From positions 1 through 64,000 of the forward strand of contig JAFEKR010000022.1 in NCBI GenBank assembly GCA_019022495.1: a stretch of 64,000 nt of DNA. The letters are read 5' to 3'. The position numbers were made by a program, and so were the translations under genes. Origin of the DNA: Epichloe hybrida. Taxonomy: Eukaryota; Ascomycota; Sordariomycetes; Hypocreales; Clavicipitaceae. Below are positions 3,137-8,415 of this stretch, piece after piece. Under the pieces are notes generated by a model that saw only the letters and a list, made by a program, of their open reading frames with translations, did not search any database and was not told the origin of the DNA. Each line of letters opens with the position of its first letter. The first letter of the stretch is position 1.

Positions 3137-3417
3137 ATGTCAGGAGCACGGAGGCCAGGGAGTCGCGGACAGGACGGTCACATGATAGAGCCCTCGGGTA
3201 AGCCTTGGCCTGCGCGGATAACTAAGTAGCTGCTAGATAGCCACGTGCACGTAGTAGGGTATTTAGACGAGGACTGCCCACAAGAGATGTGAAAGGTCAG
3301 AGTTTGAGACCTTCATGCACCCACCCCTAAGTAGCAGCTCTCTAGCTACGACCAAGAACCTCAGCCTTCACTCCGTTTATATCTCTCCCACCACAGTCGT
3401 GACACAAAATTAGCGTA
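3137..3417 (+). pseudogene. RIP-like degraded coding fragment
   Basis: From the ATG at 3137 the frame reads like protein (for example WPARITK, then LLDSHVHVVGYLDEDCPQEM) but is interrupted by several stops: TAG, TGA, TGA, TAG and a terminal TAG. All of these are what C-to-T changes in CAG or CGA codons would give. The frame stays otherwise coherent across these stops up to 3417. I do not recognise the parent protein; a transposon-encoded protein is the likeliest source because it lies beside a satellite array and LTR-like sequence. Confidence 0.35.
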
Positions 3418-3542: not shown

Positions 3543-3800
3543 TTGTAACGGATTACAAGTAACATATTGTGTGGCTAGAAATATGACCCCTTAAGACCTC
3601 TCTCATAAGACCTCTAGCCACTTCGACCTCGGATCTATTGGCTTGTCAGATCAATTCAACCACATCGGATCCCTAGTCATGTGGCCTAGCCCCTGACCAC
3701 CTAGCTAGATAAAAGCCCTAGATTCCCTCCTTTTTCATACAAAATCAACTCTCCCTTTGTGGCCTTTGGCTTGAATTGTTCAATTGGGATGATACCCTTT
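3543..3800 (+). repeat. Possible solo LTR remnant
   Basis: The stretch starts with TGTAACGGATTACA, a TG-initial short inverted repeat, and contains a TATA-like GATAAAAGCCC near 3710, as in a U3 promoter. The downstream end and a target-site duplication could not be fixed by eye. It may simply be AT-rich intergenic DNA. Confidence 0.25.
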
Positions 3801-4072
3801 TTGCTTCGGCTAATATTGGATAGCTTCGGCTGATATTAGATTGATAAGATGACCTAATATTGGAAAGAGACTTCGCAGCTTGGATCCTCGCGATGGATCG
3901 CAAATATCGCAGACCTAGATCCCGATATCTAGGTTCAATCGTTGATATCGTTGAAATCGTTAATATCGTCATTTTCGTCAGCAACATCATTGTCGTCAAG
4001 TCCCGCTTTTCCGTTGTTTTGGGGTGGTTGTTTTTCCCTGACAAGATATTTAGAATTTATATATGCAGTGTC

Positions 4073-4082
4073 AAAAAAAAAA
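4073..4082 (-). terminator. Pol III oligo-T terminator of the tRNA gene
   Basis: Ten consecutive A residues on the plus strand, that is T10 on the tRNA strand, lie directly after the discriminator base. This is the canonical RNA polymerase III terminator and supports the tRNA gene as a transcription unit. Confidence 0.85.
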
Positions 4083-4219
4083 CGACACCTGCAGGATTCG
4101 AACCTGCGCACACGAATGTAATGCCTTACTATATGTGAATGTTAGTGGTAAACTCGAACAGGTGGGAGGACAGGATGGACGTACGCAGGGCATCGCCTTA
4201 ACCACTCGGCCAAAGTGTC
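4083..4219 (-). tRNA. tRNA-Ser (anticodon GCU) interrupted by a 56-nt insert
   Basis: Exon 1 is 4219-4185 and exon 2 is 4128-4083. Joined, they form a complete class II tRNA: a 7-bp acceptor stem (GACACTT with AGGTGTC, one G-T pair), G discriminator, D arm with the A box (TGGCCGAGTGG), anticodon stem ATGCC/GGCAT with loop CTGCTAA (GCT anticodon), a long variable arm (ACA-TTCG-TGT) and a T arm with the B box (GGTTCGAATCC). The G discriminator and long variable arm indicate serine. The interruption (4129-4184) lies between bases 35 and 36, inside the anticodon, not at the usual 37/38 tRNA intron site. It begins GTACGT, has CACTAAC 12 nt from its end and finishes ATAG, like a spliceosomal intron. 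Splicing at 37/38 instead would leave a GCG anticodon on a serine tRNA body, which is unlikely. Confidence 0.85.
4129..4184 (-). other. Spliceosomal-intron-like insert within the anticodon
   Basis: The insert is 56 nt. On the tRNA strand it has a GTACGT donor, a CTAAC branch motif and an ATAG acceptor, the same consensus used by the protein-gene introns in this window. Exact removal restores GC+T, the serine GCU anticodon. Whether it is removed, and by which machinery, cannot be seen from DNA. Confidence 0.7.
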
Positions 4220-6455
4220 TTGATTCGACGCGGACTTAACAGCTCCATATAGCAAAATTAGATAAGCTTCCGCTTGCCTAGCATCTAACCTAAGAATGCC
4301 AGCTAGGTTTTGGACATAAACAGCTATTAACAGGAACAAGCTTCTTAACATGCGACGAGTAGCAACCCCCTATTTCCCTGCTGTGCTCCTGCTGTGCTTG
4401 TCTGCGCATCGCAGTTGTCTAATTGCAATCGGTGCATTTATTTAGAGACACACGTGGTGTTATTTGTGTCTCCCCTCTTGTAAGGATAAGGGAAGCGAAC
4501 CCGCCAAAGAAATCCAAAAACCCGTCCAATCATGCGAACGCCCTTCTGTCCACCCACAGCAAACGACACAATCCCTAATCAAGATATATTTCCACGTCCG
4601 CCAAGACCATGTCATACCAAACCAGTAGGAAACTTCGTGTCCAGATAATAAGACTGTCGTGTGTTACGTGGACAGGCCACTAGAAACGCTTTCACCTTAA
4701 CCTGGTGCTCATACATTGAAGCTCGTATATAATGTTAACGTGGGTTAACGCGCGGGTCCCGCTGACTTGGAACGGTCTTGCTGGTGGCAATGATACATAT
4801 TGTGCTACCCTCGTTGCTATTAACTCACTCCTGCAGGTGGCTCCTGGTACGAGCGTGTTTCTTCTTCGATTCGCCTGGCCATGGCCTCTCATCGGTTTGT
4901 TATACTCCATTCTGGTTTGGTTTGCATCTCAAGGCCGCCAGATAGGTCGTGCAACAAATTGTGTCTGTCCTACGAGTGGCGGCGCCACTGGAGGTGTGTT
5001 TTGTGCTGGTCTTCTTTGCTACCTTATAGATCAGCCGATTGCTCGGTTTCAGGTTCCCCCTCAGGATAACGCAAAGCTTTACAGCCGCCAGCAATAACGT
5101 TAAGCTCGTCGTGACCGTTTCCGTGGCCACTTTTGGGCCAGACAGTGACCAGGCATCAGCTTCCACGGTAGGTCGTCTAACTGAGGTGCCCGTGTTTATT
5201 GGCTCGATATATGTCGTTCGCTTGATGGCTAAGAGATGGATGGGGTTGGAAAACGGGGACACCAGATTAGCTTATGTGGTCTAGTAATTCAAATGAAGAC
5301 TGATTATCCACAGCACAGATAATGTTGTTGTCCACCATGTGCTTTTGACACGGAGTAACGTAAGTGGTCGACTACTGGAACTTCTCCGTCAGAAATCGAG
5401 GCGGCTGGCTGTGCCTGCTGATTGTGGCCTTCCTACGAAACAACATGGCATCAGCCACCAGTGCCATCAATCGTCGATAAGCATTCACTTTTGGTATAGA
5501 AATGCCGCCAACCGTTGGCAGCCTCAAGTTGTACTGATATGAACTGTGCCCTGTCTACTTGGAACGAACTGGTGAAATTTAAGTACTTAACCACTAGCTT
5601 CATAGAACACCATTGTTGAGCATTGTATGCTCCTTTATCGCAGCCACTGTTAGGGGTGCGCACTCCCTTTTTGGCCTGGTTGGCCTGGCTGCTGTTTAAC
5701 AACCATCTAGTAACTGAATGATATTCGTCCTCTTTACAGAACAGCAGCTTGCTCCGATCTTCTTGGGCAGGCAAATGGATCCGTCTATTGGAGGTCCTGA
5801 GATTGTGACTCACTAACGTTTAGTGATATCATCGCGGAGTCTCGGCAATCCGTTGTTTGCGAGAAAAGCCGGCTTCGGCATGCATGGCATTGCCTTCCCT
5901 TAGAAAAGGGTCTTGTATCGTAATGTCAGCCAGCTTGACCTGTTGACCTCCTTCGCTATTACTCTCGGCTTTCCGAATTGGAGACCCGAAATTCGCTTCC
6001 GTATTGACCTCTCGGGAAGCATGTACACGGTACACTAATCGTGGTGCCTGCCCGCCGTTTGGCCCCATCCATGTAGATGCTCTGGAGTAATCGACACTGA
6101 GGCCAGCTGAATGCCTGATATACGAAGAAGAATTGTCTTAATGAAGCCGCTTTCGAAAACGAACCCGAACCTACCAACATGGACCAAGGTAATCCGCAAC
6201 CCATGACGAATTATAATGAGGGCGGTCCAAAAGCTCGTGATTCGGAATGTGTTCTGCCTAGAAGAATAGTCACTGCTAAACAGACGCAAACGTTGCATCT
6301 GGCTCTAATTAAATGGCTGTGCAATATCTCAACACAGCAATGACGTCGTCATCATCGGGTGTATCGCACGCCGTTTCCTACTCCGATCCGCCTTCCTCTT
6401 CTTCAGTATCCCAGCATCCCAGCAGCCGTACAAGTTGGACGTCCAGCGCCATAAC
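4220..6455. other. Gene-free stretch between tRNA and the SDR gene
   Basis: There are only short frames, none with a recognisable domain. The longest are a 121-codon plus-strand frame at 4732 and 120-codon minus-strand frames at 4900-5262 and 5451-5813. Near 5367-5475 a plus-strand run reads protein-like (containing DYWNFSVRNRGGWLCLL) but is bounded by stops. Decayed genes are possible; none can be named. Confidence 0.5.
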
Positions 6456-7599
6456 TCAGCTCGACCTGCTCTTCTCGCTTTGCCCCAGCCCCTGTCTCCC
6501 GACGTACGTCCTCATCCCCCTATCCACGCCCGCCACGGTCCTTGCTACGATTTGCAACCCCACCGGCAAGACGTTGTACCAGTCCACCCATCTCGCATAC
6601 AGCGGCATCCCCACCGTTGCGCCTCTCCCATTGTCGATCGCCGCGATGATCTCCTTGGCCACGTCGACAGGTTCCACGACCGGGGCAAAGAAGCTGCTTG
6701 GCGTCTGGACCCCGTAGAAAAGAGGTGTGCTCAATTGTCCTGGGGTGATGAGCACGGTGCGAATTTCAGGATGCGTCTGGCGTAGCTCGGCCGTCAAAGA
6801 GCGGTGCAACGCCGTCAGGCCAGCCTTGGCAGCCGCATAGTCTGTCAATTGCGCGGCGCCGAGGTGGCCGATGACAGACGAGATATTGACAATGGTCCCG
6901 CCGCGGCCGCCGCGCAGAATGGCCGGGAGGAATGTCTTGAGGCAGTAGAATGGGCCGAGCAGGTTGGTCGCCAGACTGGTGTCTATTTCTTCCAGGGAGA
7001 GGTTCAGGAGAGATTTCCCAATGACGACAGCCGCGTTGTTGATGAGGACTGTCGGTTTTCCGAGCTATGGTGAGCGGTTAGTATTCCCAATGATCCCTCT
7101 CGCCTCAGCAGAGGACAGAACTTACGTCTCGCTCAATCTCAGCCGCCGCTTTTGCAACCTGCTTCTTATCGCCCACATCGCACTTGTAGTGCGTCACGCC
7201 TCTGGCCTCCCCATTCTCCATGTCATTGACGTCCAGAACAGCAACGCTCGCACCCCTCATCCCGTACACCTCGGCGACCAACATGCCCAAGCCGCTCGCA
7301 CCGCCCGTGATAACAATAACTTCCTCGCTCAGGTCGACATCCCGCGGCAGGCCATGCGCAATGCGCTGGTTGATGACGCTCGCCATCCAGCTCAGTGTAA
7401 TAAGTGTCGCCCAGGCAAAGGCTCCTAGCATGCGAGGCGCATCCCACCGGACTGTTTGGGCGCGGAAGCACAGCGGGATCATCCAGCACACAAAGGGATG
7501 CAGGAATGTGACGTTGAGGACCTTGACTAAGAGGTCGATCGAGAGAGGCGCGAACCATGAATCACGCTGTGGTGGGCGTGGATAGTCCTTCGTAGCCAT
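6456..7599 (-). CDS. Short-chain dehydrogenase/reductase (SDR), membrane-anchored type
   Basis: Exon 1 is 7599-7126 and exon 2 is 7064-6456; the 61-nt intron (7065-7125) has GTAAGT, TACTAAC and ATAG. The product is about 360 aa. The start is the ATG of MATKDYPRPP; the longer frame upstream has no family support. The classical SDR signatures are in order: a cofactor glycine motif TGGASGLG near residue 100, the NNAA segment opening exon 2, a serine in NISSVIGH, and the catalytic YAAAK. A hydrophobic stretch (residues about 20-75) before the Rossmann fold suggests membrane or lipid-droplet attachment, as in the RDH10/17-beta-HSD11-like group. The substrate cannot be told; a lipid, retinoid-like or sterol-like alcohol or ketone is typical of the group. 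Likely NAD(P)-dependent. Confidence 0.9.
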
Positions 7600-8415
7600 T
7601 TTTATTTTTATCTCTTTATTCGCAGGTTGTCGAGGATAGATCACGCGATGGGTGGGATGAGATGAATGCCGGTGCTGTGCGGTAGCGACGGAAACGACTT
7701 GATGGCAGCCTCTGGGCAGTCTGAAGGAGAGCGAAATTTCAATCAACCCATGTGCGGAAAGAATATGTGTTGTTGCGAAAGAAAGGGAGTTGAAGCTGAA
7801 CAGAAGCGAGTGCGTTCAGCTTGTTGGAGCGTTGACAGGTTGAAACAAACCGGGTAGCATGTGAAGCACGCTTACAAGTTCATGTCGTACGTCAAGGGCG
7901 GGCACGGACCCCCTTCTGGTGGGGCCCTGTTGAGGTGGAGAATGGCTGAGGTAATCATTGGTAGTATTATTATGGGGAACGCAGTAGCTAGATGACTGAA
8001 CAATACGGATTACAACCTACATTACATTATCCCACTCAATTTTGGTACTGCTTCAGCCCTCAGCCGAGCCATTGAGCCGAACCCCATCTATCTGCCTGCT
8101 CTGGTCACAGTGGTCAGCTACCAACAAGCGCCTCACCTCCCTCACTATCAGAGGCAACCAGAACTCAGAAATCCTAAGCTTATGTACGCTGAAGCCTTCC
8201 TTTGCCGCATGCTGGCTGGGTCACAGCAGATGACCGAAATTCCACTCCTGTCGTCCCAGACCCCAGACCCCTCCCCTTAAACGCTGTACCGCCTCACTGA
8301 TCCAACGTGCAACCTGATTGATTATACGAATTCGAAAATGAGTAAGTAGTATGGCAAATCGCCACTGCACACAATCATGTAGAGATTTCTCCCATCGTAC
8401 ACCACCATCAACAAC
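7600..8415. other. Intergenic region upstream of the SDR gene
   Basis: This 816-bp stretch separates the SDR start from the RRG9-like stop. It would contain the SDR promoter and the RRG9-like 3' UTR. I see no further gene or structured element. Confidence 0.6.

Follow-up and report, generated by a model that had tools for sequence, protein, structure and literature searches.

Can an intron of the mRNA type interrupt the anticodon of a nuclear tRNA gene that is still able to yield a tRNA? Teaching keeps the spliceosome and the tRNA endonuclease apart as two systems, and this question is raised by a tRNA-Ser(GCU) gene in the 64,000-nucleotide stretch of DNA analysed here (the window, from contig C72), in which an insert with mRNA-intron-like signals lies between tRNA positions 35 and 36. 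We confirmed this observation as real and precise.

The class II tRNA-Ser gene at 4083–4219 (minus strand) scored 46.3 bits against the Rfam tRNA family (E = 1e-6; gathering score 29), with the model complete from 1 to 71, and reached an E value of 8.1e-9 when searched on a 501-base stretch. ARAGORN, run with the bacterial code on the 64-kb window, called no tRNA. On the minus strand, the gene comprises an exon of 35 nt, an insert of 56 nt, and a second exon of 46 nt. Removal of the insert (4129–4184) gave an 81-nt tRNA-Ser(GCU) with the loop CTGCTAA, a complete cloverleaf and a long variable arm. The features of the locus are as follows; the b copies are two of four other tRNA-Ser(GCU) genes described below (C78b and C80b).

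4185–4219, minus strand: exon 1 of the tRNA-Ser, 35 nt, ending in CCCTGC at tRNA position 35 and including the A box; matching the first exon of each of the four further copies at 35/35 positions
4129–4184, minus strand: insert of the mRNA-intron type by its sequence, 56 nt, between tRNA positions 35 and 36; single copy found in the genome
4179–4184, minus strand: 5′ splice-site-like GTACGT, by sequence
4141–4145, minus strand: branch-site-like CTAAC (in CACTAAC), ending 12 nt before the insert end, by sequence
4129–4132, minus strand: 3′ splice-site-like ATAG, followed by the TAA of the anticodon loop, by sequence
4083–4128, minus strand: exon 2 of the tRNA-Ser, 46 nt, from T36 to the discriminator G73; same sequence as the second exon of either b copy
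4094–4104, minus strand: B box and T arm, GGTTCGAATCC, by sequence
4073–4082, minus strand: T10 run resembling a Pol III terminator
4247–4252, minus strand: TATA-like CTATAT, 27 nt upstream of the gene; by reading, a similar box lies at a similar distance in each b copy
4240–4289, minus strand: upstream stretch common to both b copies; score reached by 0/500 shuffles against C78b and 0/500 against C80b

This architecture agrees with the sequence-only reading in each of its elements: the exact restoration of a class II tRNA (81 nt, equal to both b copies) with this loop, the insert between bases 35 and 36 with GTACGT, CACTAAC 12 nt from its end and ATAG (coordinates and sequence both agree), and the intact A box, B box and T10 terminator (the last at 4073–4082). 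All Pol III signals of the gene, including the TATA-like box, were present by sequence, and the precursor contained no T run longer than three. Decayed stems, decayed boxes or exon mismatches of the kind that mark tRNA pseudogenes were not found, and the 81 positions held 0 mismatches relative to the b copies.

We then compared the gene with its relatives across the 156 contigs (79.9 Mb) of the genome, where five tRNA-Ser(GCU) genes were found: the one in the window, two on contig C78 and two on C80 (a and b on each). A genome-wide search with a 3′-end pattern allowing up to 3 mismatches returned ten matches, five exact (all tRNA-Ser(GCU) genes) and five with 3 mismatches; three of the latter (L057–L059) were the ends of tRNA-Leu genes (L091, L101, L102), L060 had the same letters as these, and L056 was left out of further reading. 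All four sister genes carry a 17-nt intron at 37/38, which the window copy is without, indicating that its ordinary intron was lost or exchanged. The sequence-only reading had called for comparison with other tRNA-Ser(GCU) copies and considered that one might be functional and intron-free; the four copies do look intact, but each has its ordinary 17-nt intron at 37/38, and an intron-free copy did not emerge.

The mature window tRNA was identical to each of the b copies at 81/81 positions, and differed from the a copies at one base in 81. For the 100 nt upstream, the alignment score with the b copies was reached by 0/500 shuffles in both cases, whereas the scores with the a copies were reached by 278/500 and 479/500, i.e., there was no likeness. 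Downstream, between 35 and 459 of 500 shuffles reached the score across the four sisters. The upstream likeness to the b and not the a copies indicates that the window gene is a relative of the b genes whose 37/38 intron was lost or exchanged. A module GTTAGA..CTAGGCAAGCGG..AGCT was also observed ahead of the b-type tRNA-Ser genes, at a distance of approximately 45–70 nt (window 4240–4289, L009 and L010), and was not found when looked for upstream of the a-type genes.

We compared the identity of the exons with the divergence of noncoding sequence. The b copies of C78 and C80 were identical at 71/101 positions upstream, and the alignable noncoding pieces of C72 and its homeologous contig C101 showed 82–90% identity. 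The probability of 81 neutral positions remaining unchanged by chance would be 3e-13 if identity were 70%, 1e-7 if it were 82% and 2e-4 if it were 90%. The mature tRNA sequence is thus likely to have been under selection during most of the history of the gene, though not strictly after the arrival of the insert; if the insert is young, exon identity would be a sign of past constraint and not of function of the intron-bearing form. Gene conversion could be an alternative cause of the alike exons, and would need to have spared both the insert and the flanks.

The surroundings of the gene were also aligned with C101.

4847–7928, strand not assigned: homeologous to contig C101 by alignment, the matching pieces being 82–93% identical; homeology ends at 4847 toward the tRNA

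A copy of the gene in the other subgenome was sought here and not found: C101 has no tRNA-Ser match and runs into satellite-like repeats beyond 4847. This absence from the homeologous contig and the repeat-rich, possibly subtelomeric place count against removal of the insert by the spliceosome, as do the four other intact-looking copies, with which the window gene need not be essential, and the fact that a single locus in a single assembly underlies the case for a tRNA with an mRNA-type intron.

Several features of these surroundings are recorded in their own right. Dispersed repeats lie directly downstream of the tRNA gene, on the side of the contig end (3565–4044 and 3137–3404), with longer matches on other contigs at approximately 77–93% identity. 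Positions 1–2737 hold a satellite with units of approximately 110–120 bp and a palindrome-like TAGGTTAGGCGCCTA (by reading), which matches C101 at approximately 74–77% over 150 bases and is possibly subtelomeric. A dispersed element of approximately 80 nt (5614–5693; approximately 40 copies among the matches listed, at roughly 80–92% identity) is missing at the matching place of C101, and therefore looks like a clean insertion. C72 and C101 are approximately 94% identical over a gene-bearing stretch and 82–90% elsewhere, and C78 and C80 approximately 76–82% around the tRNAs. Two diverged subgenomes may be present, through hybridity or an old duplication, as the pairs C72/C101 and C78/C80 and two U6 genes (C67, C84) suggest.

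We next consider the insert itself. It shows the sequence marks of a U2-type intron: a 5′ GT consensus, a branch site, a 3′ YAG, and fungal spacing and length. The strict pattern GTRNGT...CTRAC N5–21 YAG occurred in 0/2,000,000 mononucleotide shuffles of the 56-nt insert and the loose pattern GT...CTRAY N3–25 AG in 282/2,000,000; in sequences from a window-trained order-1 Markov model, the counts were 3/2,000,000 and 494/2,000,000, respectively. These odds refer to one site, and the many other places open to a reader are uncounted in them. Among 19 candidate protein-gene introns in the window (54–120 nt), the 3′ ends were CAG in 10 and TAG in 9, and the branch sites included CTGAC in 7 and CTAAC in 2; this set is impure, as the same filter returned 7 from reversed sequence and some candidates overlap on opposite strands. 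The signals of the insert resemble those of these candidate mRNA introns, which counts for spliceosomal removal, and the rarity of its exact motifs among them (GTACGT in 0/19, with GTACGC in 1/19, and CTAAC in 2/19) counts against it.

In the unconstrained predicted fold of the precursor, the 5′ splice site was paired (mean probability of being unpaired 0.24), with values of 0.47 for the branch site and 0.48 for the 3′ site; the stability of the precursor was not above that of shuffled sequences (z = 0.06). When the cloverleaf was enforced, U33, G34 and C35 paired with bases at the 3′ end of the insert (P = 0.92–0.98).

BLAST of the assembly at E values up to 10, in search of a second copy or donor of the insert, matched the insert itself alone, as did an assembly-wide search with its 25-nt core allowing up to 3 mismatches. 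Within this assembly, neither an introner burst nor a recent donor is consequently indicated, and membership of an introner or repeated intron family was rejected on this single-copy status. An intron nested inside an ordinary intron and leaving the latter behind was likewise rejected: GTACGT directly follows CTGC, and TAAGG directly follows the insert.

A survey of other tRNA introns in the genome, covering 21 genes, provided the comparison for the window gene. Sites matching the B box GGTTCGAATCC numbered 113 genome-wide, compared with 10 in the control; from 100 of these 113 sites, we set aside 7 already known and read 40 of the remaining 93. At these 40 sites, ARAGORN with introns allowed made 15 calls and 7 sites passed the Rfam tRNA threshold; the other 8 calls were copies of one tRNA-like repeat and were excluded from the intron count. 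Ten more genes, of 84–103 nt, were drawn from at least 63 tRNA family matches; among the 63 listed, which did not include the window gene itself, 17 were non-Ser genes longer than 80 nt, and 7 of 84 nt were left out of the survey. Together with the four sisters and the 7 B-box sites, these formed a set of 21 other intron-bearing tRNA genes (17 distinct introns).

The introns of this set were 10–36 nt in length, and all could be read as lying at 37/38, a placement chosen from the anticodon stem (pairing 5/5 in 12 genes and 4/5 in 7) and as such a fitting reading and not an independent test; the exon ends of L129 and L130 were set by hand. None of the introns in the 21 genes read (17 distinct) started with GT. 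One gene, L122, matched the loose GT-AG expression and was rejected, its intron being CTG...CTA and not GT-AG. This genome may hold further tRNA genes with mRNA-type introns. Two genes for U6 were found, one of 103 and one of 104 nt, and both were without an intron; there is thus no second Pol III example in this genome, and this counts against spliceosomal removal at the window gene.

The survey also brought up two repeat families. A multi-copy tRNA-like element, ACCCCGTGGCGTGGTGGTTACA...GGTTCGAATCCCACACGGGGC, was present at L099, L100, L103, L104, L107, L108, L110, L118 and L120 (8/40 loci by pattern and L103 by eye), in many cases preceded by AT-rich sequence resembling TTATATAATTA. It fell below the Rfam tRNA threshold, with ARAGORN assigning 8/9 copies to Arg or Pyl and giving them a 7-nt intron, and may be a SINE of tRNA origin or an unusual tRNA. 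A second family, TCTTTTGGTCTATTGGGATTCCTAGCACACC..., with a B-box-like GGTTCGAATCC, was seen by reading at L081, L082, L085, L086, L090, L092 and similar loci.

How, then, is the insert best explained? The sequence-only reading had offered a tRNA that needs the spliceosome and, as the alternative, a non-functional copy into which an intron had inserted; the sequence favours the former, and the latter proved too simple, as the 37/38 intron is also missing. Put more fully, an mRNA-type intron or other DNA would have entered a spare tRNA-Ser gene that is now silent or whose precursor is degraded. The presence of four further tRNA-Ser(GCU) copies, the location among dispersed repeats (3565–4044, 3137–3404) and satellite (approximately 1–2737, by reading), and the paired 5′ splice site in the predicted ensemble are all consistent with such a fate. 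Decay, however, would not be expected to give exons equal to the b copies at 81/81 positions with Pol III signals kept, and the precise placement of an insert with full splice signals is unlike decay. A very young insertion could look alike, yet the donor search of the assembly found none; we regard a non-functional copy as unlikely, though deserving of consideration.

An ordinary intron cut by the tRNA endonuclease (Sen) at 37/38, as in the sisters, with the GT-AG appearance arising by chance, appears improbable to us. The 37/38 parse also gives a 56-nt intron, whose third-last base, G, can pair with C32 (C32–G(−3)); a pairable 32/−3 combination was found in 13/21 of the other introns as well, and is therefore unspecific. 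The 3′ joint of the window gene is alone unremarkable and could stem from an ordinary intron, since 4/21 of the other introns (loop CTCATAA, two distinct) end in AGTA before A38. Pairing of U33–C35 with the insert end under the enforced cloverleaf would form an anticodon–intron helix like that of ordinary introns, and Leu genes of this genome have ordinary introns of 33–36 nt. What weighs against this explanation is its product: cleavage at 37/38 would not leave a functional anticodon, but the loop CTGCGTA with anticodon GCG and U37, a serine tRNA for the Arg codons CGC/CGU, which is the product of 0/4 sisters. Seryl-tRNA synthetase is not known to read the anticodon, so a GCG product would insert serine at Arg codons, which makes an ordinary intron unlikely; the case against a product with GCG and U37 draws on tRNA identity rules and the purine at position 37. 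The combined splice signals would, in addition, be a coincidence. Use of both machineries on one precursor, the spliceosome giving Ser(GCU) and Sen a misreading Ser(GCG) as a conditional source of Arg-to-Ser mistranslation, is structurally possible under both parses, but selection against mistranslation would be expected and no sequence feature speaks for the second product; we give it very little credence.

The precise restoration of the tRNA, exons equal to those of two other copies despite diverged flanks, the intact Pol III signals and the intron-like signals favour spliceosomal removal. From these sequence features, we consider it probable that this is a Pol III tRNA-Ser(GCU) gene that has lost or exchanged its ordinary 37/38 intron and now carries, at 35/36, a U2-type intron processed by the spliceosome. 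The precursor transcribed by Pol III would measure 35 + 56 + 46 nt; GUACGU, CACUAAC and AUAG would be recognised by the spliceosome, with the 56 nt leaving as a lariat; and C35 would be joined to U36, giving a normal tRNA-Ser(GCU) that would then be charged and used.

Two routes to this arrangement may be proposed, and both fit the locus as judged from its sequence. In one, an excised mRNA intron would reverse-splice into a tRNA already without its ordinary intron, and reverse transcription with recombination at the locus would then remove the old intron and bring in the new one in one step. In the other, a long ordinary intron with TA at both sides would gain a G between C35 and T36, which would create GTACGT and shift both joints by two bases. 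On balance, we lean towards the wider proposal of a nuclear tRNA matured by the spliceosome, in which reverse splicing or this one-base conversion replaced an endonuclease-type intron by one of the mRNA type lying within the anticodon, leaving a precursor open to two machines and two anticodons.

If this is true, a tRNA gene has switched systems, and the spliceosome is able to process a short precursor whose Pol III promoters are internal; the locus would also be a natural case of intron exchange, as the sister genes retain the ordinary intron. If the insert is spliced, maturation of this tRNA would depend on the mRNA splicing machinery. The two cutting routes would give different anticodons, GCU and GCG, a clean readout that makes the locus easy to test.

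In the titles and abstract openings of the open-licence literature, with subscription literature mostly outside this scope, we recognised no spliceosomal intron in a nuclear tRNA gene; an earlier report of an mRNA-type intron in a tRNA may exist. Fungal U6 snRNA genes with mRNA-type introns are reportedly described in Canzler 2016. In the literature, tRNA splicing is described as spliceosome-independent (PMC13149111), and among small structured RNAs, frequent interruption is given as known for U3 and U6 alone (PMC5832005).

The closest likeness is to the U6 introns of S. pombe and other fungi, which are U2-type introns in a short structured Pol III RNA; in S. pombe, the spliceosome removes such an mRNA-type intron from Pol III-made U6 (PMC8917221), a precedent for the removal proposed here. 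The host here differs, being a tRNA with internal promoters that would normally be served by Sen and ligase, and removal by the spliceosome, known for U6, is here suggested by sequence. Fungal U3 snoRNA and lichen rDNA introns are likewise spliceosomal introns in noncoding RNAs, and those in rRNA are removed in lichen fungi and engineered yeast, a second precedent, but their hosts are not tRNAs (PMC8527467). Canonical Sen introns at 37/38 share the interrupted anticodon loop, and the four sisters each carry one; the insert in the window gene differs in lying at 35/36, splitting the anticodon, having a GT–branch–AG organisation and measuring 56 nt as opposed to 17 nt in the sisters. The tRNA genes of algae and archaea that are interrupted at unusual sites, along with permuted tRNAs (PMC3978253, PMC9602550), resemble this gene in having an unusual site of interruption; however, the introns of PMC3978253 are described as of the BHB type, and the portions of these papers at hand describe no spliceosomal signals in tRNA genes. 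What this locus would add is a further class of host gene for introns of a kind already known, and not a new kind of intron.
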